A stretch of DNA of 59,093 nt from the NCBI GenBank assembly GCA_020692355.1, contig JAIMKP010000018.1, positions 1-59,093 on the forward strand. Direction: 5' to 3'. The notes beneath the pieces were generated by a model that saw only the letters and a list, made by a program, of their open reading frames with translations, searched no databases and was not told where the DNA came from. The DNA comes from Desulfosporosinus sp. (lineage in GTDB: Bacteria; Bacillota; Desulfitobacteriia; Desulfitobacteriales; Desulfitobacteriaceae). Position 1 is the stretch's first letter; each line of letters starts with the position of its first letter. A program made the position numbers and the translations under genes. Shown piece after piece: positions 4,752-59,054 of the stretch.

Positions 4752-6360
4752 CACGCTCACCACCCATTGCGCTCGATTCGAACGCTTCTCGCCCCTCAGT
4801 TTCAGCTCCCAAGAGCCGGATAAACGGATTTAGATAATCTGCCCCCTTGGCAAACACCCCATCTAGCCCTCTTCCCCCCTCTAAACTACGAGAAATATCT
4901 GCGAACATCCCCCTCTCCAGTGCCATAAAGAGCCCTATCTTCTCGATATCCCGTAGCATCCCAACGGCCTTTTCCAGGGTCTCTACCGCCCGCTTTTGAA
5001 TCCGGCCTTCCGCTTTAAAAGTTATCTCCTCCCCCATATGGCGCAAGACCCCAAAGACCAGACGAGCCGCTTCCAAACTCAAAGCCCGATCTTGAATAAG
5101 GGGGGTGTGAATCGCTTCCGTGAGCATCCCCAGCAAGTGGATGCTCTGCCCCGTCAGGACAGAGGCGACATTAAATAAGGCATCCTGGATATGTCCTCGG
5201 AAAATATTACCTGTCATGTGTTTCGTTGGGGGCATGTATTTAATGGGGGAGCGCGGAAACACTTCTCGAACGAGCTGCGCCTGGGCCATTTCATAAAGAA
5301 ATGCGTCCGGCACGTCCGGATTGATCTCCATCGCATGTCCAAGCCCCTGTTGTTCTTCTGGCACTCCGGACAGAAAGGCAAACTCAGCGTTGATAAAATT
5401 GGAAGCAAGTACCGTATGGGCGGCTTCCATCGCATCCGCAGTCGTGAGATAATTGTCCTCACCCGTATTGATAATGATTCCAGCAAACCCGTTGATCATC
5501 CGGGAAAAGTACTGATCCACAAAGGTGCGTTGCATGTTAATATCCCGGAAAATGATCCCATACATGGAGTCATTGAGCATGACATCGAGCCGCTCCAATG
5601 CACCCATCGCCGCAATCTCAGGCATACAGAGCCCTGAGGCGTAGTTAGTGAGGCGAATATAACGTCCCAATTCCTTTCCCACCTCATCGAGGGCCGCGCG
5701 CATGATCCGGAAGTTGGCCTGAGTCGCATACGTGCCGCCAAACCCTTCCGTGGTCGGCCCGTAGGGCACGTAATCGAGCAGGCTCTGTCCCGTGGAACGA
5801 ATAACTGCGATGATATCGGCCCCTTGGCGGGCGGCTGCACGGGCTTGAACCACATCTTCATAAATATCCCCCGTTGCGACAATCACATAAAGATAAGGCT
5901 CAATCCCTTCTCCCTGGGCCAGCATCGCCCTGCGCGCTTGGCGCTGAGCGCGTATCTTTGCAACTGCAGGCAGCGCTAACGCTCTTGCCGTGTTCTCGAT
6001 CACTTCCTCTGGAAAATCCGGAAGTTCTGTCAGGCGAATCGTTCCTTGCTCAATCCCCTCAGCCAAAGACTGAGGGGATTTTCCATAGTGAATGAAAGCC
6101 CTTGTCAGCGTTCGGGCTGACCCCTCTGCGAGCAGTCCCTCTTCCTGGAGATGTTCGACCACAAGATTAGGCAAGGGGATCCCTTCGGAGTTCACTCCAT
6201 CAATTCCTAGTAAACGGAGCACCGCCCGTTCCACACTGACGGTACTGTGTGAGATGATGAACGGTTTAACCTCAGCCACAATCTCTTTGGCTAGGGTACG
6301 GGCCTCATCAATCAGGGCCGGGTTCAGGTTCAGTTTTCGTTCTTGATAAGGATAAGTCAA
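4744..6360 (-). CDS. kamD: D-lysine 5,6-aminomutase, alpha subunit
   Basis: Catalytic TIM-barrel subunit of lysine 5,6-aminomutase, about 538 residues. Recognised by STVSVERAVLRLLGIDGVN near the N-terminus, followed by conserved family segments such as ARAAARQGADIIAVIRSTGQ and YATQANFRIMRAA. The start is uncertain: GGAGGTG is followed by GTG (6363) and TTG (6360), and a further GTG lies at 6375. TTG at 6360 has the best spacing (six bases). Its end overlaps kamE by 8 bp. The 15-16 bp between this start and the kamB stop suggest transcription in one operon. Confidence 0.94.
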   Translation of the reverse strand: MTYPYQERKLNLNPALIDEARTLAKEIVAEVKPFIISHSTVSVERAVLRLLGIDGVNSEGIPLPNLVVEHLQEEGLLAEGSARTLTRAFIHYGKSPQSLAEGIEQGTIRLTELPDFPEEVIENTARALALPAVAKIRAQRQARRAMLAQGEGIEPYLYVIVATGDIYEDVVQARAAARQGADIIAVIRSTGQSLLDYVPYGPTTEGFGGTYATQANFRIMRAALDEVGKELGRYIRLTNYASGLCMPEIAAMGALERLDVMLNDSMYGIIFRDINMQRTFVDQYFSRMINGFAGIIINTGEDNYLTTADAMEAAHTVLASNFINAEFAFLSGVPEEQQGLGHAMEINPDVPDAFLYEMAQAQLVREVFPRSPIKYMPPTKHMTGNIFRGHIQDALFNVASVLTGQSIHLLGMLTEAIHTPLIQDRALSLEAARLVFGVLRHMGEEITFKAEGRIQKRAVETLEKAVGMLRDIEKIGLFMALERGMFADISRSLEGGRGLDGVFAKGADYLNPFIRLLGAETEGREAFESSAMGGERDV

Positions 6361-6374
6361 CACGTTCACCTCCA

Positions 6375-7493
6375 CTATAAACTCCCATGCGGATACCAGA
6401 TTTTTTGTTTAACCAGATCAACTAAAGGCACTGGACTATAGGGGATGAGTGCCTCGGCCAGTTCTTCCGTGGGAATGGGATTTAGCGGATGCCACGGGCT
6501 TAAGCTGAGAAAAACCAGCTTAGGCTTCCGTCTCAGGTACACCTCAATCCCGCGCGCTTTCAACCCTTGCCATACCGTAGTCGTAAGCAGAAGCTGAGCC
6601 GGGTTGTCGAGGTAAAACCGCTGAGGTAGACGTTTCCGTTCGCGCAAAGCAAAATACACCTGATCCGTGAACGCCCCGCTCAAATAAAGTGCTTCAGGCT
6701 TTACGGGCACGACCTTGCACCAATCCCATAACCAAAGTCCTCCCGGAAGCGAATGCCACTCATCCTTCGTGCGGAAAGCATTTCGTCCTTTGTTCCCCTC
6801 CAACCCGACGCCTCTCGATCTGGATTGTTCTCCTGCTCCGCCGGCCTCTTGATTTTGGGGAAAGTTCTCTGCCACAGGCAAACTGAACCACTCTAATACT
6901 TGATTCGTTCGTTCTCTGACTTCAGGCAGGGAACGGCCGACGGTCGCCCCCGTGCTCAGAACGATACCCGCGTCCGTAAGCAACAGGTGAGATAGGCGAT
7001 CCAAGGCCCCATCGATATGCACCCGCTCTGCCCCCCAAATTCTCAGGTGTTGAATCCCCTCTTCAAGCTCTTTCAGACGTGACGGCCCGGCCACGCTGGC
7101 ATCCCTCTCCTCAAGGACTTTCAGAATCAGCCAGGCACCATATTGAGGATGACTACCCCAGCGTTCAAGCACCTGATACGGGACAGGGGCCTGGCTGAGC
7201 GCCGAACTTACTCGGAACCCCTCCGCTGTTAACAACAACTGCCCCGGATATACGCGCACAGGCGGCTTTGGGTGGCCGTAAAGGGCGTCTTTTGCTTCGC
7301 CGTCATAGCCAATGGACGTAATTCCAACGCTTTCCTGTGCAAACCACGCATTCACCCCATTGAGTGCGGTCGTCTTGCCCACATTTTTTGCTAATCCCGC
7401 AAACACCAGGAGGCTCCGCTCTCTGATGCGCTCCTCCAGCCCACTCGCCCAATGGCTTTTAGACTCCCTCAACATAGCGTGAGCCTCAGGCAT
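6375..7493 (-). CDS. kamB: Lysine 5,6-aminomutase reactivase-like P-loop protein
   Basis: 372-residue P-loop protein with Walker A GLAKNVGKTTA near residue 33 and a GYDGEAKDAL segment. In lysine fermenters kamB sits beside kamD/kamE and is thought to help reactivate the cobalamin enzyme together with the MutS-like KamC. No kamC is found in this window. The ATG at 7493 overlaps the kdd stop (ATGCCTGA), a translational-coupling arrangement. A Gly/Gln/Arg-rich stretch around residues 205-235 (EAGGAGEQSRSRG) looks like a flexible insertion. Assignment depends on position in the operon and the P-loop; sequence memory of the family is moderate. Confidence 0.8.
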   Translation of the reverse strand: MPEAHAMLRESKSHWASGLEERIRERSLLVFAGLAKNVGKTTALNGVNAWFAQESVGITSIGYDGEAKDALYGHPKPPVRVYPGQLLLTAEGFRVSSALSQAPVPYQVLERWGSHPQYGAWLILKVLEERDASVAGPSRLKELEEGIQHLRIWGAERVHIDGALDRLSHLLLTDAGIVLSTGATVGRSLPEVRERTNQVLEWFSLPVAENFPQNQEAGGAGEQSRSRGVGLEGNKGRNAFRTKDEWHSLPGGLWLWDWCKVVPVKPEALYLSGAFTDQVYFALRERKRLPQRFYLDNPAQLLLTTTVWQGLKARGIEVYLRRKPKLVFLSLSPWHPLNPIPTEELAEALIPYSPVPLVDLVKQKIWYPHGSL

Positions 7494-30779: not shown

Positions 30780-30798
30780 GGTAGGGAAAATCCCTACC
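30780..30798 (-). terminator. Terminator of the 6S-like RNA
   Basis: GGTAGGGA/TCCCTACC stem with three-base loop, then TTCTGTATTT on the minus strand, immediately after the closing stem of the RNA. Confidence 0.6.
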
Positions 30799-30976
30799 TC
30801 TCCCACCTTGCCGTAGGACTCCAGGTTTCTGACCCTGTTCTCGCAGGTGGGCACCTAGGCCATATCTTCCGGCTTCCCTTCGAAAAGGGCTTGTCGTACT
30901 CACATGTTCCATATCAGTTCCCTAAACATCAATAGGATCAAAACCAAGATAAATCCGTACGCACAAGGTAGGTTGT
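30799..30976 (-). ncRNA. ssrS: Probable 6S RNA
   Basis: The gene-free stretch holds a minus-strand RNA of about 175 nt. Its 5' CCTACCTTG pairs with 3' CAAGGTGGG, then CGTACGGA pairs with TCCTACG and GGTTTTGATCCT pairs with AGGGTCAGAAACC. The result is a long interrupted rod around a central open region, with an apical CCCTT-TTCG-AAGGG hairpin. The segments GCCCACCTGCGAGAACAGG and CTACGGCAAGGTGGG parallel the E. coli 6S 3' half. A strong extended -10 sits directly upstream and a terminator downstream. 6S RNA binds sigma-A RNA polymerase; identification is by eye. Confidence 0.75.
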
Positions 30977-30982
30977 ATTTAC

Positions 30983-40434: not shown

Positions 40435-41781
40435 CTAAAGCGTATCAACCTTCAAAAAGTCCATTGCCAGGAAAGTACCGTTCCTCGACGTACCAAGGTA
40501 TATTTTATTAGCAAACTTATTAATGATTCCGAATCCATAACCACAGGAAATTTTCGTGGAAAAACCATTTAAAAAAACCATATTGGGCAGCTTATCCATT
40601 TCCATTCCCGGTCCTTCATCCGCTATGGTGACTCGAATACCCTTGTCAATTTTCCGGATCTGCATGATGCCATAGTTGGCATGCTTAATCACATTCGTTG
40701 CCGCTTCGGAAATGCAAAGCATTGCATGATTAATTTTTTCGGGACTGTACTTTTCTTGTTCAAGCACTTTATGAATTAATTCCCTGGCAGTGTTAACATC
40801 ACCAGGGTGTACAATTTTCACTTCCGTTAGTACGTTTCCTTCACAGGATATTGACTTGGATTTAGATTCATTAAGTAAGTTAAATTTCCCTTGAGTTACG
40901 GAATAAATAACGTCTTTATACACATTAAAGATTTTGTCTCGTTCCATTTTGCTCTTCTCAAGGTCCTCCTCCAGCATCCTCTTCTCATTAAATAACAAGT
41001 CACCGCCTTGGTTCACGATTTCTCCAAAAGCCTTAAATTCATCACCTGTTTTAATGTTTAACTTTTCGGGGTGATTCTGGTTTCCTAACGGTTTAGTAGA
41101 TTTCTTGATCGCCCTATAAGTCATATGAATCATTAATCCCAATCCGAATGCAAAAAGAAACAATGCCCATAATCCTAAACCCATTTCCAGTTTGATAATG
41201 CCTTTGGCTGTCATATTGACACGAACGATACCCACGGTTTGTCCATTGTTATCTTTAATTGGTGCGAAGCCAGAAAGAAAAGTGCCCCACTGATCTGTCT
41301 CAAAGTCATGGCCAGCTACCGGAGCGTTATTTGCATTTTCATTTTTTATTACTTCCTGGTCGATTACAGTATAATTATCACCAATATGGTGATGGTCTTT
41401 GGTATTATCTGCATCTACAACATATTCCCACTTATTTCCCACGTTTAATTTTCGTATAGTATAAATAGACTTAATACGGGAATTATTCTCTTTAAAAACT
41501 TGGAGCAAGCGTTGGATTTTACGGTATTCTACACTATTCTCGTCAGGATGTGTTTGTAATCGGTTATGTACCTGACCATCGATTAACGACGCTGCAGTCG
41601 CCGCCAAATTAGTCACTTCTAGTTGAAACGTTTCGTTAAACTTAAACATGTGGTGAAAGATATAATAATACGAACCTAATATGGAGAGAAGAATTAAACT
41701 GAGGTAAATAGCTACCTTGAAAGTCATTTTCCTTCTAATACTGCCTTGATACCACATTCTTAATTTACTTAAGTTGCCCAT
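40435..41781 (-). CDS. Membrane CACHE-domain sensor with RsbW-like kinase domain
   Basis: 448-residue protein. TM1 (~20-45) and TM2 (~200-222) bracket an extracellular CACHE-like sensor (SIYTIRKLNVGNKWEYVVDA). A HAMP-like/linker region and a long helix (~255-290) follow. The last ~130 residues are a GHKL domain of the SpoIIAB/RsbW/RsbT type: N-box CISEAATNVIKHANYG, G1 IADEGPGMEM, and a late glycine-rich SCGYGFGIINKF. No phospho-acceptor His dimerisation motif is seen, so it probably phosphorylates a STAS protein. Last gene of the riboswitch operon; the STAS protein is encoded just upstream. Confidence 0.85.
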   Translation of the reverse strand: MGNLSKLRMWYQGSIRRKMTFKVAIYLSLILLSILGSYYYIFHHMFKFNETFQLEVTNLAATAASLIDGQVHNRLQTHPDENSVEYRKIQRLLQVFKENNSRIKSIYTIRKLNVGNKWEYVVDADNTKDHHHIGDNYTVIDQEVIKNENANNAPVAGHDFETDQWGTFLSGFAPIKDNNGQTVGIVRVNMTAKGIIKLEMGLGLWALFLFAFGLGLMIHMTYRAIKKSTKPLGNQNHPEKLNIKTGDEFKAFGEIVNQGGDLLFNEKRMLEEDLEKSKMERDKIFNVYKDVIYSVTQGKFNLLNESKSKSISCEGNVLTEVKIVHPGDVNTARELIHKVLEQEKYSPEKINHAMLCISEAATNVIKHANYGIMQIRKIDKGIRVTIADEGPGMEMDKLPNMVFLNGFSTKISCGYGFGIINKFANKIYLGTSRNGTFLAMDFLKVDTL

Positions 41782-41814
41782 CTTACCCGCCTCACAAGTT
41801 GAACAAATCCCAAC

Positions 41815-42138
41815 TTACGCATTCTTGATCTGAAAAACTTTCTCACCAAATATTTCCGGTAAACCAAGGATTTCAAAAACCTCAAACACACCTGGCGGAA
41901 TATTCCTGATAGTCGCAGTTACTCCTTCAGAATTCAGTTTTCTCAGGATTTTACTTATTGTGCCTATACCTGTAGAATCGACAAAAGTAACCTTGTCAAA
42001 ATCCAAGTTCACCTCATGAATATCTATAAGTTTATTCACAGATGTCTGAATTGATTCAACGGTGGAAATATCTAGAACCCCGTCAAAATGGAGCGTAGCC
42101 ACTTCATTGGCGATTTTCGTTTTAACTTTAAGCAGCAT
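41815..42138 (-). CDS. STAS-domain anti-sigma antagonist-like protein
   Basis: 107-residue SpoIIAA/RsbV-like protein with the phosphorylatable Ser in FVDSTGIGTISKIL. GVLDISTVESIQTSVN closely matches GILDISTVEAFKSSVN in the STAS domain of the first HD-GYP protein of the operon. The ATG at 42138 has AGGAGG upstream (longer spacing); the longest ORF starts 14 codons earlier inside fapA. Expected to be phosphorylated by the RsbW-like kinase and dephosphorylated by the PP2C phosphatase. Confidence 0.88.
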   Translation of the reverse strand: MLLKVKTKIANEVATLHFDGVLDISTVESIQTSVNKLIDIHEVNLDFDKVTFVDSTGIGTISKILRKLNSEGVTATIRNIPPGVFEVFEILGLPEIFGEKVFQIKNA

Positions 42139-42157
42139 TTCCCTATGATCCTCCTTC

Positions 42158-44053
42158 TTATTTCTGGGCAATCCCTTCAAGCTTTATGTGACCGCCCTCA
42201 TCCACCCATGCCCGTAAGTAACGGTTATTCTCTTGAATAAGGAGACGTTCGGTACCGTGTTCTAATATTACTCCCGGATGAACAAATTTAGCTTCCAAGC
42301 AGCAATTGTCCAGCAACTGAATGTTAACTCCCGAATCACCAGTCGGTGAACCAAGCTCCCATATTTTTATTTTGTCCCGGGCCATAAGCCGACCACCTCT
42401 AACTTTGCCGTAGGGAATCAAAATACTACCTCCAGCTTCCAGTTCCGAAGCAATACTGCCCGGTCCCGTAACAATGATATCTCCGGTGGTCCTTAGAACA
42501 CTATTTTGTACGTAATTTACTGTAATATTAACTTTAGTAGAAATTAGCCACTCTTCCGTTTCAACTGCCTTCTGTACCTTGGCAATAAGTAGCTCAACTT
42601 CTGTTTGTTCTTTAATACGCAAAGGCCCTAAGTTGCAAAGTTTTTCCTTCAATTCTGTGGCAACTTCCGTAAGCATCGGGTCCAGTGCTTTGTTTACCTT
42701 AGATAAGGCCTGGACAAAAGCCTTTATTATCTTTGGTATATCTTTATACTTGAAATCAATCAACAGCTGAACAAGTTGCCCTTCACCTTTGGCCTTTAGA
42801 TCAGCAGTGGAAAAAGCCGGCTGATTCTTTAGAATCCTTGCGGCGTTGAACATACTTTCAAGACGGTCTTGGAGTACACGGAGCATCTGCAAGATCTGCT
42901 TATAGTTTACTGACAGACCACCCGCTTGAATCCTAGCCGTGATAGCATTATTATGAATTGTGACTTCCCGGTTGGCAAACAGGGTAGCAAGCCTAGCATC
43001 TCCCCATAGTTCAATGCTTCCCCCCGCGTCAACGCTAAAGCTGTCTAACACACTCCCAGTGATAATAATATTTCCTTTAAATCTTATGTTTCCTGTATAA
43101 ATCCCCACATCGCCGTTAACAACATAAACGGGATCAACCGATAGATACTTGCGAACGGAGCCTTCCAAGACCGGTTTACCTGAGATTGCAGCCATAGCCA
43201 CTGTTCCATCATTAATTAAATGTACTCCTCCTTTAATAAGAATGGGTTCGTCTTTAGGTTGGCGTGGAGGAACACTCTCTCCTGTAACATCTATCCCTGG
43301 ATATCCAGTTACCGGAGGTTGTTTTACAGCCAAGACCTCACCGATTGAAACCGATATGACATTTCCACTTTGAAAGTAACTATCTTGGTTAGCAACTCTA
43401 TTTTGGAAAGTATAAACAATTTTGGAATCCTGTACCCCGGTTGGTTTCTGACCCACCGCAGCCACTATGGAGATGTTCTTTCCTTGAAAAGCAACTGCTT
43501 TTTGAATCGCATCTTCCCTAATGCCAAAAATGACCTTGTTCTCGTGTAGTACATCCAGCACTTGCTGGAGCCCGACCTCCGGCCATATCTCCTGTTGGTA
43601 CTTCGCCGAAATACATACCTCCAACGATGGGGGAATATCCTCGATAGAATACCGTTTGCCGGGTTTTTTGCGTAGAGTTAATAATGCTTTCATTTTGTCT
43701 TTTGATATTTCAAGATCGAGCGAAAAAAATGGCTCCGTATTAATAACCGATACCTCAATATGGTCATCTTCATTGACAACAGTAGGGCTGGTTAGTTTTT
43801 CACCGTTGATCAGAACTTCTACATTCGCTCCTCGGCTTATTGTGGGAAATTTACCGAACCCTTTGGGATTAGATACTATGACCTGGCCGTTACTAAGCAT
43901 AACAGAACCGTTCCGGTCTTCCTCATTAGTTCCTTGATCTGCAGACCTGCCAACCAGCCTTATTGAATTTGCTTTATCTTTGTCTTTCAAGTCTTTTACA
44001 AAACTCCCCCCGCGGGTTTGCACTTCTACAGTTGAGACTTTCTCGAAAGCCAT
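42158..44053 (-). CDS. FapA (DUF342) family protein
   Basis: 631-residue DUF342/FapA protein. A beta-rich polymer-like domain lies near the middle (NGDVGIYTGNIRFKGNIII, DAGGSIELWGDARLATLFA), followed by a helical segment (~400-500) and a second beta part (TGPGSIASELEAGGSILIP). The N-terminal ~90 residues carry a KH/Jag-N-like portion. FapA-like proteins are linked to polar or flagellar assembly in Vibrio, and the function in Clostridia is unknown. ATG at 44053 follows GGGGGGTG. Confidence 0.8.
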   Translation of the reverse strand: MAFEKVSTVEVQTRGGSFVKDLKDKDKANSIRLVGRSADQGTNEEDRNGSVMLSNGQVIVSNPKGFGKFPTISRGANVEVLINGEKLTSPTVVNEDDHIEVSVINTEPFFSLDLEISKDKMKALLTLRKKPGKRYSIEDIPPSLEVCISAKYQQEIWPEVGLQQVLDVLHENKVIFGIREDAIQKAVAFQGKNISIVAAVGQKPTGVQDSKIVYTFQNRVANQDSYFQSGNVISVSIGEVLAVKQPPVTGYPGIDVTGESVPPRQPKDEPILIKGGVHLINDGTVAMAAISGKPVLEGSVRKYLSVDPVYVVNGDVGIYTGNIRFKGNIIITGSVLDSFSVDAGGSIELWGDARLATLFANREVTIHNNAITARIQAGGLSVNYKQILQMLRVLQDRLESMFNAARILKNQPAFSTADLKAKGEGQLVQLLIDFKYKDIPKIIKAFVQALSKVNKALDPMLTEVATELKEKLCNLGPLRIKEQTEVELLIAKVQKAVETEEWLISTKVNITVNYVQNSVLRTTGDIIVTGPGSIASELEAGGSILIPYGKVRGGRLMARDKIKIWELGSPTGDSGVNIQLLDNCCLEAKFVHPGVILEHGTERLLIQENNRYLRAWVDEGGHIKLEGIAQK

Positions 44054-44072
44054 GCTTTCACCCCCCAAGGAC

Positions 44073-45287
44073 TCATCCCACTTTTAAACACGCGAAGGTA
44101 ATGTCATCCTCCTGCTGACAATTTCCGATATACTGGCTAACATGAATCGTTAAACTGTCAACGATTTGCTGTGCGCCAAAAAGAGAATTCTTGCTTACGA
44201 CGTCAACAATATTGTTTAACCCGAATTGTTCACCGCTAGAGTTAGTAGCTTCTGTTACGCCGTCGCTATAAAAGAGTACAACATCACCGGCCATCAACTG
44301 CACCCCTATTAATTGGTATTTTTTATTTTCAATGCCCCCAATGTAAGCACCTTTAACTTTCAATAACTCATATTGACCGGTTGCACTATGAAATACAAGT
44401 GGAGGAAGATGTCCGGCATTGGCTAAAAGAAGAATTTTCTTTACAGGCTCATAAAGAGCATAATGTAATGTTACAAAAGTTTCTCGTTCAACCAAGTCAC
44501 GATAAAGGGTATTATTGACTTCTTCAAGCACCACATGGGGTTGGACACCGCTCTTAGCTATTGTACTTAAAGTTACCCTTGTCATAGCCATCCATAAAGC
44601 CGCCGGGATTCCTTTTCCCATGACATCCCCCAACGCAATTCCCACCAACTTGTTTTGAGTTTGAAATATATCCAGATAATCGCCTCCCACTTCATGGGCA
44701 GTTATCGATTGAAAGGCAATAGAGCTACCCTCGGGTTGAAGTGCTTTCTTGGGCAAGAAAGAGGTTTGGATTTGCTTAGCAATCTCCAACTCTTTGCTGA
44801 GACGCTTGTGATTAGAACCGGAGAAATTCCGGTAATTATGTAGCCCTTGAGCCAAGTCGGCGGCGATTAAAGTAACTAAAGAAACAATGTGTTTACCAAT
44901 ATCCCTATTAACAAACCAGAGACAAATAGCCCCAACTACATCCCCATGGCTGGAGAGTTGCGTAGCGAGAGACAATAATCTTTGTTTTTTGATATTTACC
45001 TGTGATTTCTGCCAGTTCAAAGCTCCTTTTCTTTCCATAGCCTGGATGGCTGCCTTAAAATCCAAAGTTGGAAGATCAGGGGGCAAGTTGTCCTCACCTA
45101 CAGAAAAAGCCAGTCGTTGCTGACCGACTCCGCCGTTAGGCCTTGCCAACCAAATGCTGCAGCAAGCCATCTGTAGATTTCTGCACAGTTGCTGCGCAAT
45201 CTGTTCAAATACTTCAGGTTCTTCAGGCGCCTTGAGTAATAAAGAACAGACTTGGTAAAGGAGTTTTTCCTCCTTCACTTCCGACAT
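44073..45287 (-). CDS. SpoIIE-type PP2C phosphatase with GAF-like domain
   Basis: 404-residue protein. The N-terminal ~160 residues look like a GAF sensor domain. After the linker KELEIAKQIQTSFLPKKALQ comes the PP2C domain with AHEVGGDYLDIF, IALGDVMGKGIPAALWMAM, NAGHLPPLVF, LFYSDGVTEATN and QEDDITFACL; the metal-binding Asp residues are present. It should dephosphorylate STAS partners. ATG at 45287 overlaps the preceding stop (TGATG), coupling it to the HD-GYP gene. Confidence 0.9.
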   Translation of the reverse strand: MSEVKEEKLLYQVCSLLLKAPEEPEVFEQIAQQLCRNLQMACCSIWLARPNGGVGQQRLAFSVGEDNLPPDLPTLDFKAAIQAMERKGALNWQKSQVNIKKQRLLSLATQLSSHGDVVGAICLWFVNRDIGKHIVSLVTLIAADLAQGLHNYRNFSGSNHKRLSKELEIAKQIQTSFLPKKALQPEGSSIAFQSITAHEVGGDYLDIFQTQNKLVGIALGDVMGKGIPAALWMAMTRVTLSTIAKSGVQPHVVLEEVNNTLYRDLVERETFVTLHYALYEPVKKILLLANAGHLPPLVFHSATGQYELLKVKGAYIGGIENKKYQLIGVQLMAGDVVLFYSDGVTEATNSSGEQFGLNNIVDVVSKNSLFGAQQIVDSLTIHVSQYIGNCQQEDDITFACLKVG

Positions 45288-46360
45288 CACAGTTCACCTT
45301 CTTCTAATATCCGGATTATGTAGAAGTCCGGATTTGAAGCCAACTCCATCTCATAAGGGGGAATAATTCTGTTCCCCTGCGAGTTCACCAGCAACCTCAC
45401 TTTAGGCCTTGTTGGGTATTCTCTGAAAGTTTCCACAACCACAGCTTTCTCCTGTGTATTTAACATGACCAATGTTCCGACCGGAAAAAGGGCAATGGTA
45501 TATATAAAATGCTCTACGACTTCAGGGGCAAAGAATTTTCCGCTGTTGGCAATGATTAATTCCACAGCTTGCAATGGCGAAAGGCGTGCGCGACCAGCCC
45601 TACCGCAGGTTAATCTGTCATATATATCTGCAACTGTGACAATTCGCGCAAATTCATTAACTTCATCCCCGCGCAACTGTCGTGGATATCCTGTGCCATC
45701 GTAGTGCTCGTGGTGCTGGAGAGCAACATGGGCAACCTGCAAACTAAGACTTTCTATTTTACGCAGGATATGGAATCCGATAGTCGTATGTTCCTCGAAT
45801 AATTCTTCTTCTTCATCAGTTAACGGTGTAGTCTTAATCAGCATATTTTCCGGGACAGCCGTTTTTCCCACATCATGAAATAGCGCTCCAGCTCCCAGTA
45901 TTCTTAATTTATCCTTGCCAAAGCCCATTGTTATGGCGGTAATAAGGGAGAGAATGGCAACATTAACACTATGCCCAAAGGTGTAATCATTCATCGCACG
46001 TATATCAACCAAATTCACAATCAGGTCACGATTGTTCAGCAACTCATTGATGATATCATTAACCGCCTCATTAATTCTGGCAAGATTAAGCGAGGGATTC
46101 AGCCTAATGTTTTCCATAGTTTCTTTAGTACATTTTATTGCTTCTAACCTGGTCTTTTCGGAAACCACGTCATCGACTTGGATATCGCCCACGGACTCGT
46201 CAACTATATACAGAACAACTATGCCTAACTCTTTCAGCCTCTCAATATATCTTGGAGTTAATGCAACTCCCCTAGCCAACAACGTTTCCCCATTCGCCCC
46301 GTAAATGGTTCTGCCTACTTGCATTTGGGATTCAACTTTTTCAATCGGAACAACCCGCAT
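45287..46360 (-). CDS. HD-GYP c-di-GMP phosphodiesterase
   Basis: 357-residue protein. DUF3391-like N-terminal part, then HD-GYP: FGHSVNVAILSL, LFHDVGKTAVPE, EEHTTIGFHIL, HHEHYDGTGYPRQL and TVADIYDRLT. A short beta domain follows (NTQEKAVVVETFREYPTRPK). All catalytic motifs are kept. ATG at 46360 follows GGAAGGTG. Together with the first gene, it means two predicted c-di-GMP hydrolases lie behind one c-di-GMP riboswitch. Confidence 0.9.
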   Translation of the reverse strand: MRVVPIEKVESQMQVGRTIYGANGETLLARGVALTPRYIERLKELGIVVLYIVDESVGDIQVDDVVSEKTRLEAIKCTKETMENIRLNPSLNLARINEAVNDIINELLNNRDLIVNLVDIRAMNDYTFGHSVNVAILSLITAITMGFGKDKLRILGAGALFHDVGKTAVPENMLIKTTPLTDEEEELFEEHTTIGFHILRKIESLSLQVAHVALQHHEHYDGTGYPRQLRGDEVNEFARIVTVADIYDRLTCGRAGRARLSPLQAVELIIANSGKFFAPEVVEHFIYTIALFPVGTLVMLNTQEKAVVVETFREYPTRPKVRLLVNSQGNRIIPPYEMELASNPDFYIIRILEEGEL

Positions 46361-46389
46361 ATCATCACCTTCCATAGTAATTATTAAAT

Positions 46390-47943
46390 TCAATCAGGTG
46401 ACCACTCGAACGTTTCTTTGCCACAAAGGTCGATCACGCCTAATATTGTAAAAAGCTTAAAGATATTTTGGGAGATATTCTTATAGCGGACAAAAATATT
46501 TCGTTCCCTAGATTTCTTGACTGCTTCAATTATCCCAGCTATCCCAGTTGAATCAACACAAGTAATCCCGCTAAAATTTATTTCTAAGCACTCTATTCCC
46601 TCAAAACAATTCACGCTGGACTTAAAAGCCTCCACTGTGGAAATGTCCAAGATCCCGGATAAGTTTAAGCTCCCCTTGTCATCCACAACATTGGCTTCAA
46701 TCTTTAAGACCCCTCCAGTAATAATTTTTCCGAACCTTTGATCTGCCTGATGCTTAGACCTATGAGAACCATTAAAATCAATGGCGTTAATCGATAGGGC
46801 AAGATCCTGACTCAAATCTACAATTTTTTCTTCTTTAAACCGGTTGCCTTGCTGATTATACATAACTCTTACAGTTGGACGAGTGGGCAGTACAGGTGAA
46901 ACTGCGATAACGGTTCCTATTTCCCCTGTGTTCAAAGTTACTGTGGAGTTTTCCGGATAGATATGTAAACAACACCTAAATGCATGCACAACGTCCGGGG
47001 AAAAATTCTGATTTATGCCCGAAAAAATCATTTCCAGGGCGTGATAAGGGGGTAAAGCCCGCCTGTAAGGACGGTCTTCCGTCAGGGCGTCATAAACATC
47101 CGCCAGTGCTACAATTTGGGCGTTTCGGTGAATTTCCTCTCCCTTTAACCCATCAGGGTATCCTTGCCCATCCCACCGTTCATGGTGTTGACGAACTACT
47201 TTGACTACTTCCTCAGGTAATTTACTCCAGCGTAACATTTGTTCACCACAAATTGGATGTTGTTTAATTAACTCAAATTCAGATGACGTTAAACCTGATG
47301 GTTTATTAAGTATTTCACTTGGAACACTTAGCTTGCCCCAATCGTGAAGAAGAGCTCCCAGAGCCAGATTATGAAGCGTTTCTTGGGTATAACCCGTCTG
47401 CATCCCAATCACTATCGCCAGTAACGTCACGTTAATGGAATGAATATAAGTAAGCTTATCGTACGTTTCTAGGGCGTTGAAGTAAACATAAGAGTATGAT
47501 TCATCCAATCGTGAGACTCCCACTTCTACAAGTGGGAGTGGTACCTCGTACTTTGCTTCGGTGGGGGTAGACTCCCCCACTGAAGTCTCGATGTTCAACT
47601 TTAGTTGAACGAGTTCACTTTCCATTTCTATAAGAATCTGGTTTAATATATCTTTCGCCTTAGATAGATAATCCGCACGAACTAAATTTGTTTCATAATA
47701 TAAGGGATTTATTAAATTCAATGCTTTATGATGTTCTCTTGATAGAGGTATATGAGGCCTGTTTGTCCAATTATATGTAACACTACTAACCTCTTGTTTA
47801 CGGATTACCTGCAGAATTTCCGGTGAAACAAGTTTGCCCTTTTCTAAGAGCAATCTACCCTGAGCGTCAAATAAATCTTGTTCTAAAGCTTGTCCTGTCG
47901 ATATTGAAACTTGTAAAGGTGTAATTTGGAAATTCAAGATCAT
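46390..47943 (-). CDS. HD-GYP phosphodiesterase with C-terminal STAS domain, carrying an in-frame repeat
   Basis: 517 residues, first gene of the operon. HD-GYP motifs: YIHSINVTLLAIVIG, LLHDWGKLSVPSEIL, HHERWDGQGYPDGLKG. Then a beta domain (NTGEIGTVIAVSPVLPTRPT) and a STAS domain (~410-517) with phosphosite CVDSTGIAGIIEA. Between the N-terminal region and the HD motif, about 39 residues (SELVQLKLNIETSVGES...VSRLD) are encoded by repeat copy A read antisense, and the frame stays open. ATG at 47943 follows GAGGGGG. The domain joined to STAS suggests direct coupling of c-di-GMP turnover to partner switching. Confidence 0.88.
   Translation of the reverse strand: MILNFQITPLQVSISTGQALEQDLFDAQGRLLLEKGKLVSPEILQVIRKQEVSSVTYNWTNRPHIPLSREHHKALNLINPLYYETNLVRADYLSKAKDILNQILIEMESELVQLKLNIETSVGESTPTEAKYEVPLPLVEVGVSRLDESYSYVYFNALETYDKLTYIHSINVTLLAIVIGMQTGYTQETLHNLALGALLHDWGKLSVPSEILNKPSGLTSSEFELIKQHPICGEQMLRWSKLPEEVVKVVRQHHERWDGQGYPDGLKGEEIHRNAQIVALADVYDALTEDRPYRRALPPYHALEMIFSGINQNFSPDVVHAFRCCLHIYPENSTVTLNTGEIGTVIAVSPVLPTRPTVRVMYNQQGNRFKEEKIVDLSQDLALSINAIDFNGSHRSKHQADQRFGKIITGGVLKIEANVVDDKGSLNLSGILDISTVEAFKSSVNCFEGIECLEINFSGITCVDSTGIAGIIEAVKKSRERNIFVRYKNISQNIFKLFTILGVIDLCGKETFEWSPD
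47503..47619 (+). repeat. Full structured repeat (copy A), inside an HD-GYP gene
   Basis: About 117 bp, plus orientation. Hairpin 1 ACTCCCACTT-CTAC-AAGTGGGAGT; hairpin 2 CTTCGGTGGGGG with CCCCCACTGAAG; hairpin 3 GTTCAAC-TTTA-GTTGAAC; end GAGTTCACTT. 117 is 39 codons, so the host frame survives. Resembles an IS200/IS605-type right end and TnpB guide-RNA scaffold; no transposase gene is attached. Confidence 0.85.
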
Positions 47944-48009
47944 CCACCCCCTCATATAAAGCAAATCATCACCACCTAGCAGGCAGTGACGACACTTACA
48001 AAAGCCTGT

Positions 48010-48095
48010 GTTTGGTAGTCCGGCGATCATCATCCTAAAATGGAAGACCCGTAACTTTGCGTCCCTAACTTTCGTCAAGTTTGCCTTTTTCGCAC
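48010..48095 (-). promoter_or_regulatory. Class I c-di-GMP riboswitch (GEMM-I)
   Basis: Minus-strand leader of the HD-GYP operon. GGCAAAC, then a hairpin CTTGAC-GAAA-GTTAGG with a GNRA tetraloop, then the invariant GGGACGCAAAG, then the P3 side and ATGATCGCCGGACTACC. This is the GEMM-I order and spacing. About 65 bp separate the aptamer from the start codon, and ACAGGC...GCCTGC within it could act as the expression platform. Confidence 0.92.
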
Positions 48096-48119
48096 CCGGT
48101 AAGGATGAAATTTAATTAT

Positions 48120-48148
48120 ATTATAGCATACGATATTCTCATTTTCAA
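48120..48148 (-). promoter_or_regulatory. Promoter of the riboswitch operon
   Basis: Minus strand TTGAAA (48143-48148), 17 bases, TATAAT (48120-48125) preceded by TGC (extended -10). Transcription would begin near 48113, just ahead of the aptamer. Confidence 0.75.
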
Positions 48149-48174: not shown

Positions 48175-48360
48175 CCTTGTTACGTACCTCTGCCACAATG
48201 GGCCTAATACTTCCCCGACCAACTCTGGATCCAAGCGGAAGTCGGTTCATCAAAGAGCATCACTTTCGGCTTCATGGCCAGAGCTCGGGCAATCGCTACC
48301 CGCTGTTTTTGCCCGCCTGATAAATTATCCGGAAATGCTTTCGCCTTGTCCAAAAGCGAT
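48175..48360 (-). pseudogene. ABC transporter ATPase fragment (frameshifted)
   Basis: Minus-strand reading gives [20 protein letters not shown] (signature motif), [19 protein letters not shown] (Walker B), then after a one-base frameshift [10 protein letters not shown]. This is the C-terminal third of a polar amino-acid-type ABC ATPase (GlnQ-like). No N-terminus or start. It occupies the gap between the NRAMP gene and the riboswitch promoter. Confidence 0.8.
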
Positions 48361-48427: not shown

Positions 48428-49675
48428 CTAACTAACTCCCTTAAACAGCCCCGGAAAGAGGGTTGCCGCCAATAATAAAAGGGTTAAAACAATCAAGATC
48501 CCGGTAAAAGTCCAGGCTACCCCATTATAGGTGCGGGAGTTGGCGTAATCTCCCATCAGCTTCTTCTTACTTGCGATCAGCATCATGAACACCAGGATCG
48601 GAGGTAACAAGATCCCATTAATCACCTGAGTCGTCAACATCACCCGATAGAGAGACAACCCCGGCCAGAGCACTAAACCTGCACTAATCCCGATGATGGC
48701 GGTATAGAGTCCGAAAAAAACGGGTGCCTCTTTGTAGGACTTGCTCACGCCATGCTCAAAACCAAACGCTTCGCACACGGCATAGGAAGTGCTCAACGGC
48801 AGGACAAAAGCTGCCAGCATTGAAGCCCCTAATAAGCCAAAACCGAAAAGAAGACTAGCATACTCACCCGCGACCGGGCGCAAGGCAATGGCCACATCCT
48901 TGATGGTTTCGATCGAAATATGATTTACAAAGAGAGTGGTAGCCGTGGAAACAATGATAAAGAACGCAATGAATCCGGTAAAAAATGAGCCCACGAATAC
49001 GTCCCAGCGGGTGTAACGGTACTCCTTGGCAGTAATCCCTTTATCCACCACAGAGGCCTGAACATAGAATTGTCCCCAGGGGGTAATGGTCGTTCCGATG
49101 ACCCCAACCGCCATGAGCAGAAACTCCGGACTCCCGCCAAAGTTCGGAGTAATAGATTGCACGAGAACCTCTTTCCAGGGAGGATGAACAATGAACCCCG
49201 ACAAGACATAACTAAAAAATGATAGGCAGAGGAGTAGGAACACTTTTTCTATCTTTTCGTAATCCGTTTTAATCACGAGCCACCAAATGATGCTGGCCAT
49301 CAGGGGAACAGAAATATACTTGCCGACCCCAAGAATTTCAAAACTCGTGGCAATCCCGGAGAATTCGGAGATAGTAGTCCCTAAGTTCGCCACCATGAGC
49401 ACGCCCATGGCAAAGAACGTCCAACGCACCCCGTAATGCTCCCGGATCAAATCAGAAAGCCCCCTGCCCGTGACCGCACCGGTTCGAGCCGACATCTCTT
49501 GAGCGATAGCCAAAAAAACCGTACTTACGATCATCGTAAAAATAAGGGCATAACCGTACTTGGCCCCCGCCGCCGCATAGGTGGCAATTCCTCCTGCATC
49601 ATTATCAGCAAAGGCGGTCACAATCCCTGGACCCATTACGGACAAAAATAGAAACAGCCGTGCTCTTTGAGACAT
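48428..49675 (-). CDS. NRAMP-family transporter, probable Mg2+ importer (NRMT-like)
   Basis: 415-residue LeuT-fold transporter with about 11 membrane segments. In TM1 the canonical metal motif DPGN reads ADNDAGGIATY. In TM6 the usual MPHN motif is absent, with GVIGTTITPWGQFY instead, so the metal-binding Met is missing. Loss of that methionine marks Mg2+-transporting relatives (NRMT), as I recall from work on a NRAMP-related Mg transporter. An M-box Mg2+ riboswitch directly upstream agrees with this. ATG at 49675 follows GAGGTGAG. Divalent-metal transport is secure; Mg2+ specificity is inference with two independent supports. Confidence 0.85.
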   Translation of the reverse strand: MSQRARLFLFLSVMGPGIVTAFADNDAGGIATYAAAGAKYGYALIFTMIVSTVFLAIAQEMSARTGAVTGRGLSDLIREHYGVRWTFFAMGVLMVANLGTTISEFSGIATSFEILGVGKYISVPLMASIIWWLVIKTDYEKIEKVFLLLCLSFFSYVLSGFIVHPPWKEVLVQSITPNFGGSPEFLLMAVGVIGTTITPWGQFYVQASVVDKGITAKEYRYTRWDVFVGSFFTGFIAFFIIVSTATTLFVNHISIETIKDVAIALRPVAGEYASLLFGFGLLGASMLAAFVLPLSTSYAVCEAFGFEHGVSKSYKEAPVFFGLYTAIIGISAGLVLWPGLSLYRVMLTTQVINGILLPPILVFMMLIASKKKLMGDYANSRTYNGVAWTFTGILIVLTLLLLAATLFPGLFKGVS

Positions 49676-49755
49676 CCCACTCACCTCAATCATAGCTAAC
49701 TATCATAGTATGCCCCGATTCCGTGGAGCGTTCCCAAACCGCATTAGGCAAGCAC

Positions 49756-49837: not shown

Positions 49838-50006
49838 ACTCTGACCTTCTCTTCTCATCGAGCTTTGGCACTGCACAACGTAGAGCACCGCTCAGCCACA
49901 TTAAGTAAGACCTTAAGCCGGTCATACCTGTTATACCCCTTGGCGTCTCTCGACATTTCCGGGCAGTGGCCTGTGTTCATACAGGAGCCTCACCTAACAG
50001 AGAATG
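49838..50006 (-). promoter_or_regulatory. M-box (ykoK) Mg2+ riboswitch
   Basis: Minus-strand segments GTTAGGTGAGGCTCCTGTA, CCACTGCCCGGAAATGTCG, AGAGACGCCAAGGGG and GTGCAGTGCCAAAGCTC match the M-box consensus in order. CTCTG and CAGAG at the two ends can form the closing stem P1. Controls the NRAMP-family gene. Confidence 0.92.
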
Positions 50007-50022
50007 TTTAATTGTCACCTTA

Positions 50023-58852: not shown

Positions 58853-58936
58853 CGTTCTCACCTCAATACGGGAATTCGACCCACAAGGACATAAATCCTC
58901 TTTATGCTTGGATGTTTCTTAGTAAACTCTCTCTTT

Positions 58937-59054
58937 ATCCAATCGTAAGACTCCCACTTCTACAAGTGGGAGTGGGTCCCCCGTACTCTGCTTCGGTGGG
59001 GGCAGACTCCCCCACCGAAGTCTCGATGTTCAGCTTGAGCTGAACGAGTTCACT
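58937..59054 (+). repeat. Full structured repeat (copy B)
   Basis: About 118 bp, plus orientation, 84 bp upstream of the FtsA-like start. Same three hairpins as copy A, with hairpin 3 changed to GTTCAGC-TTGA-GCTGAAC: an A-to-G change in one arm is matched by T-to-C in the other. End GAGTTCACT. Confidence 0.85.

Follow-up and report, generated by a model that had tools for sequence, protein, structure and literature searches.

A c-di-GMP-I riboswitch-led operon of HD-GYP proteins, FapA and partner-switch components in Desulfosporosinus

The partner switches SiaABCD, HsbA/HsbD and Bgr are tied to cyclic dimeric guanosine monophosphate (c-di-GMP) through cyclases (PMC8457831). SiaABCD adjusts its enzyme through phosphorylation of its antagonist; in the Hsb and Bgr systems, phosphorylation of a STAS-domain protein controls a c-di-GMP enzyme, in both cases a cyclase (PMC8457831). 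Riboswitches for c-di-GMP usually precede motility, adhesion and virulence genes and not genes of c-di-GMP metabolism, and those of class I in Clostridioides difficile are OFF switches that act via transcription termination (PMC11477304). These two kinds of control would meet in an operon on the minus strand of a 59,093-nucleotide stretch of Desulfosporosinus sp. (assembly GCA_020692355.1, contig JAIMKP010000018.1), hereafter the window. Here a c-di-GMP-I riboswitch leads genes for two HD-GYP proteins, a phosphatase, FapA, a STAS protein and a membrane kinase, apparently an undescribed control circuit.

A literature search that left most subscription journals outside its reach did not find this combination described. 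A first-pass annotation of the window, which knew of no system joining these parts, is borne out for the combination, but a link between partner switching and c-di-GMP was already known, on cyclases (PMC8457831).

The operon and its leader

Pfam identifies six genes behind the aptamer. The first, HD-GYP1-STAS (46390-47943), joins an HD-GYP domain (~47466-47014; HD_5, E 1.7e-32) to a STAS domain (~46701-46426; E 1.2e-8) and starts at ATG 47943, 3' of the aptamer. It is followed by a divergent HD-GYP protein, HD-GYP2 (45287-46360; HD_5, E 3.4e-29), a PP2C/SpoIIE-type phosphatase (44073-45287; SpoIIE, E 3.1e-46) with a GAF-like N-terminal part that scores below the cut-off, a FapA family protein (42158-44053), a stand-alone STAS antagonist (41815-42138; E 7.5e-17) and a membrane kinase (40435-41781; HATPase_c_2, E 3.9e-13). 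The intergenic gaps are 29, -1, 19, 19 and 33 nucleotides, a plausible ribosome-binding site precedes every gene, and purL begins 133 nucleotides past the kinase gene. The strongest promoter candidate in the region (48120-48148, minus strand) is of the sigma-A type, TTGAAA-17-TATAAT with TG before the -10 element, and matches 11 of 12 consensus positions, a consensus match rather than a mapped start. Rfam, the promoter scan, Pfam and gene spacing thus agree with the first-pass proposal of a riboswitch with its own promoter ahead of six same-strand genes.

Three covariance models recover the aptamer (48011-48095, minus strand). In a search of the genome, RF01051 matches 48095-48011 (-) with 70.9 bits, above its gathering score of 35, in keeping with the class first assigned to the leader. 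A cmscan of the whole window gives RF03167 (c-di-GMP-I-GGC) at 48094-48010 (-) with 67.7 bits against a threshold of 59 (E 6.7e-14), and a purpose-built model, R1, made from 17 aptamers that include this one, scores it at 90.8 bits. The bases at what we take to be the ligand-contact positions in Vc2 numbering read, from the sequence and alignments, G20, A47 and C92. A GGC-variant riboswitch with a different ligand was not favoured, since every aptamer in which position 47 was read, that of the window included, has A there.

The 3.36 Mb genome holds three RF01051 aptamers. The second (locus L038, 5377-5461; G000:C90) leads an HD-GYP1 paralogue (5535-6638) whose HD domain is 58% identical; a CheX-like gene comes next, and the contig also carries motA/motB-like genes. 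The third (locus L039, 291-374; G000:C26) lies ahead of a gene for a methyl-accepting chemotaxis protein. The first-pass annotation recognised the riboswitch-led HD-GYP operon but missed this second riboswitch-led HD-GYP1 gene; likewise, it had the riboswitch itself right but overlooked its expression platform and likely sign.

That platform consists of a candidate intrinsic terminator (47955-47993, minus strand), with a 13-pair hairpin (47993-47965) and a U-rich tail, and of a candidate antiterminator (47980-48008, minus strand). The hairpin has a dG of -17.7, equalled in 1 of 40 shuffles, and an equivalent terminator occurs in all 10 other leaders tested, each equalled in 0-2 of 40 shuffles. 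By RNA folding, the 5' arm of the terminator offers GCCUG as a pairing partner to CAGGC, the sequence that adjoins the P1 3' strand; in Paradesulfitobacterium-type leaders the corresponding pairing sets CAGGGAG opposite CUCC(U)G. This comparison covered a handful of leaders, as the pattern search missed many aptamers of the family. The P1 3' strand is left free by the 5' arm of the terminator; in the window and its relatives it is the candidate antiterminator that runs into it. Binding of c-di-GMP would accordingly stabilise P1, block the antiterminator and favour termination. The aptamer-terminator architecture therefore predicts an OFF switch, with a confidence that is moderate because the overlap between P1 and antiterminator in the window is 1 nucleotide.

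The opposite sign has an evident appeal. In an ON switch, high c-di-GMP would boost the phosphodiesterase and give negative feedback, a set-point for c-di-GMP, which is the simplest logic for an enzyme that degrades the messenger; the 1-nucleotide overlap and the closeness of the folding energies also leave room for it. In its simple version, however, such a switch needs a terminator 5' arm that overlaps the P1 3' strand, an overlap that is not present, whereas it is the candidate antiterminator that overlaps P1 in the window and its relatives. The class I switches of C. difficile, too, are OFF (PMC11477304). An ON switch is consequently rather unlikely, and an OFF switch is the preferred assignment.

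Partner-switch and HD-GYP proteins

The operon encodes a complete kinase, phosphatase and antagonist set, as first proposed. DSTG, the motif for phosphorylation, is present in both STAS domains, the free one and that of HD-GYP1. The PP2C protein keeps its catalytic motifs with the metal-binding Asp residues (GGDY, GDVMGKG, YSDGVTE, DDIT). In the kinase as modelled by AlphaFold2 (mean pLDDT 71.6), residues 315-445 match RsbW with Z 14.5 (103 residues, rmsd 1.4) and SpoIIAB with Z 13.9, and the ATPase fold also matches the SiaB kinase (6kko, Z 10.8). The sensor half of the kinase has no Pfam match; in the model, residues ~25-217, which lie between two membrane helices, resemble the extracytoplasmic CACHE/PAS-like sensors of the CitA/DctB/KinD/Tlp3 type (Z ~11-12). 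These values make the original description of a CACHE-RsbW-like membrane kinase right in substance. FapA contains both its FapA_N and beta-solenoid domains, and Pfam finds no GGDEF domain among the operon proteins.

Since the kinase, STAS and PP2C proteins have RsbW/RsbV/RsbU-type folds or motifs, they could form a conventional switch for a sigma factor encoded elsewhere, with the HD-GYP genes as passengers. The operon itself contains no sigma factor gene, in agreement with the first-pass annotation, and only two genes in the genome score above the SigBFG cut-off, which fits the sporulation factors sigma F and sigma G. The HD-GYP fusions to STAS and HATPase domains described below suggest another output, and a sigma-factor switch is improbable.

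HD-GYP1 has the full HD-GYP motif set, metal ligands included (LLHDWGK, QHHERWDGQGYP, ADVYDALTEDRPYR). It probably degrades c-di-GMP, a substrate proposed with some reserve because its closest solved relatives are 5z7c, a 3',3'-cGAMP phosphodiesterase, and 4mcw. HD-GYP2 retains HDVGK, GYP and ADIYD and has no canonical RPYR. In the HD-GYP2 of Paradesulfitobacterium the Lys is replaced, and the Thermincola-type family shows a substitution there and at the metal-binding Asp position too. A regulatory role is more likely for HD-GYP2 than strong hydrolase activity. The earlier description of two c-di-GMP hydrolases is plausible for HD-GYP1, whose motifs are canonical, but not safe for HD-GYP2, which is divergent and has lost catalytic residues in its relatives.

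The HD-GYP1 gene also carries an in-frame palindromic repeat (GTTCAACTAAAGTTGAAC ... CCCACTTGTAGAAGTGGG; 47498-47613, minus strand) that has 41 matches in the genome. It adds ~39 residues that are absent from the orthologues, and another copy sits at the window's far end (58934-59030, minus strand).

Recurrence of the gene set and of the riboswitch

Related gene orders occur in Paradesulfitobacterium, Desulfosporosinus and other families of Bacillota. Paradesulfitobacterium ferrireducens PLL0 (L036/L143) has HD-GYP1, HD-GYP2, PP2C, FapA, STAS and kinase in the order of the window, and the contig of a related metagenome-assembled genome (MAG; L113/L142) breaks off after the first four genes. 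In Desulfosporosinus sp. I2 (L034/L153) the order is HD-GYP1, STAS, kinase, FapA, HD-GYP2, PP2C, STAS, to which Desulfosporosinus UBA8487 (L035/L145) adds a second PP2C gene between kinase and FapA. Thermincola MAGs, HGW-Firmicutes-14 and others encode an HD-GYP-HATPase fusion, HD-GYP2, PP2C, FapA, STAS and kinase; this family shares only its phylum with the window, and its fusion is confirmed by Pfam. By percent identity, HD-GYP1 and the kinase of the window are nearest to Desulfosporosinus and HD-GYP2, PP2C and FapA to Paradesulfitobacterium, so that the operon looks like a mosaic. The kinase and this FapA are absent from most Desulfosporosinus and Desulfitobacterium genomes.

A FapA scan of named genomes returned mostly spirochaetes past ~18 matches, and the wider survey was a draw of 398 genomes across the phylum. 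At a cut-off of E <= 1e-40, 18 of the 398 encode a homologue of the PP2C protein, with FapA within ~7 kb in 15 of the 18, and FapA is encoded beside partner-switch genes in every module found. The first-pass annotation described the operon correctly but not this wider FapA-linked family.

The aptamer recurs with the genes. It leads the genes at L036 of Paradesulfitobacterium, at L113 of its relative and in both Desulfosporosinus, each of which has two aptamers. At a further locus from the genus of the window (L114), the riboswitch is followed by HD-GYP1 and FapA. Outside the family, aptamers lead sets at L123, L125, L226, L254 and L256, and the purpose-built model adds L280/L255, L269, L292 and L295. 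Gene order varies among them: riboswitch, HD, kinase, PP2C, FapA in L292; riboswitch, kinase, STAS, PP2C, STAS, FapA in L295; and riboswitch, HD, STAS, DUF5317, HD-HATPase fusion, PP2C, FapA in L254.

As a check for bias, 39 FapA loci (0.61 Mb) were picked by FapA similarity alone, blind to RNA. Against a background of ~376 aptamers, summed from the table, in 101 genomes of the phylum of ~2.6 Mb each, these loci hold 11 aptamers where ~0.9 are expected, a ~12-fold enrichment (Poisson P ~3e-9, without correction for phylogeny). Across all surveyed FapA loci, a strict rule places 24 of 27 aptamers upstream of FapA and on its strand. Within the RNA-blind set, aptamers occur at 3 of 4 partner-switch loci and at 6 of 32 other FapA loci, a weak difference (P 0.04).

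A riboswitch-led HD-GYP gene could by chance have come to abut an unrelated partner-switch operon, as a riboswitch with a lone HD-GYP1 gene is common in Desulfosporosinus. This explanation is rejected, and has very little probability, because rearranged clusters are conserved in other genera and families; the tight gene spacing and the varied orders and fusions also speak against it. From the genomes compared, the set looks conserved and real, and rearranged across distant Bacillota.

In several Bacillota families, aptamers stand directly before FapA genes with no partner-switch genes nearby (L236, 11162-11243; L238, 8689-8774; L264, 2355-2488; L271, 10382-10465). Because some aptamers lead lone FapA genes, the c-di-GMP-I riboswitch seems to have FapA as a recurrent target in its own right. 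In L254, a riboswitch-led HD-GYP protein (813-1577) has a C-terminal Spo0E-like domain (Pfam, E 6e-6), a possible link of c-di-GMP to sporulation control. In two genomes of one family, the riboswitch-led HD gene is separated from FapA by a uracil-DNA glycosylase gene (L272, 5336-5989; L283, 9987-10646).

Near the operon, an M-box magnesium riboswitch (49843-50008, minus strand; 147 bits) precedes an Nramp-family transporter gene (48428-49693, minus strand), which suggests an Nramp-related magnesium importer. Between this gene and the promoter of the c-di-GMP-I riboswitch lies a remnant resembling an ABC-transporter ATPase (~48220-48340, minus strand), possibly the trace of a past rearrangement. 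The window also encodes a 6S RNA (30796-30977, minus strand; 70.3 bits).

A proposed circuit and its relation to known systems

HD-GYP proteins are repeatedly joined to partner-switch domains. Besides the STAS fusion of the window, HD-GYP is fused to a HATPase domain, by Pfam, in L123, L125, L226 and L037, and it adjoins a STAS gene in Desulfosporosinus (L034, L035) and in G402/G180 (L254, L255). Because of these links, c-di-GMP breakdown is taken as the output. In the circuit proposed for the window, the extracytoplasmic domain of the kinase would sense an external ligand, the kinase would phosphorylate the DSTG serine of both STAS domains, and PP2C would reverse this. The phosphodiesterase activity of HD-GYP1 would then depend on whether its own STAS domain is phosphorylated and on competition from the free STAS for the kinase, with FapA as a scaffold or second target. 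Under an OFF riboswitch, low c-di-GMP would allow the operon to be made, which would keep c-di-GMP low; this positive feedback could make the low c-di-GMP state self-sustaining. A ligand-sensing partner switch that acts on HD-GYP1 through STAS, with FapA and the OFF riboswitch in these roles, has about an even chance of being the correct reading. The broader proposal, a widespread and undescribed Bacillota family in which c-di-GMP-I riboswitches govern a FapA-centred partner switch that toggles HD-GYP phosphodiesterases, is more tentative and somewhat doubtful. In such a family, repression by c-di-GMP at the RNA level and control of its breakdown at the protein level would combine into a bistable switch.

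Several observations weigh against this reading. The HD-GYP1-STAS fusion is found in the window only; in Paradesulfitobacterium, HD-GYP1 lacks its own STAS domain, one free STAS is all that the module encodes, and the kinase has no extracytoplasmic domain. No aptamer was found at the partner-switch FapA loci L124, L128, L130, L154, L222, L234, L235 and L237, and within Desulfosporosinus many riboswitch-led HD-GYP1 genes stand alone, apart from any partner switch. The single-nucleotide overlap in the window leader likewise makes the OFF sign a weak point.

The main rival is that FapA may be the real target. The partner switch would act on FapA, or on another flagellar or polar target, the HD-GYP proteins would simply be co-regulated, and with rising c-di-GMP the riboswitch would turn down a motility or polarity module centred on FapA. 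FapA is the most constant neighbour of PP2C, STAS and kinase, also where no HD-GYP gene is adjacent (L222, L234, L235, L295), the aptamers before lone FapA genes in L236, L238, L264 and L271 fit such a role, and other FapA genes lie among flagellar and chemotaxis genes by our own reading of the neighbouring sequences. This alternative, which does not account for the recurrent joining of HD-GYP, by fusion or as a neighbour, to STAS or kinase, is a serious but unlikely one.

If control of HD-GYP1 is correct, the operon would be a new way for Bacillota to wire the choice between motile and sessile life, and FapA, which is very widespread and has little assigned function, would gain a testable role in signalling. 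In Proteobacteria, partner switches are known to control the synthesis of c-di-GMP; one for its degradation under direct riboswitch control would be new.

Each described system shares part of this design. The kinase fold, the STAS motif and the SpoIIE-type phosphatase are those of SpoIIAB/SpoIIAA/SpoIIE and RsbW/RsbV/RsbU; unlike in those switches, there is no sigma factor in the operon, the kinase has a membrane sensor, and one STAS domain is fused to an HD-GYP domain. The leader belongs to the same RNA family as the class I c-di-GMP riboswitches of C. difficile but, unlike their usual targets, it leads a phosphodiesterase and a partner switch. As in SiaABCD of Pseudomonas aeruginosa, a phosphatase, a kinase and a STAS-like antagonist accompany a c-di-GMP enzyme (PMC8457831). 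The Sia target, however, is a diguanylate cyclase and SiaC is a DUF1987 protein, whereas the candidate target here is an HD-GYP phosphodiesterase with its own STAS domain. The operon also differs in its riboswitch leader, in the extracytoplasmic sensor of its kinase and in encoding FapA. HsbA/HsbD of P. aeruginosa and BgrV/BgrR of Sinorhizobium meliloti likewise pair a STAS protein with a c-di-GMP enzyme. To our knowledge, neither includes a riboswitch, FapA or an HD-GYP protein. By analogy, the operon may do for c-di-GMP degradation what the Sia, Hsb and Bgr switches do through cyclases, on the same principle.

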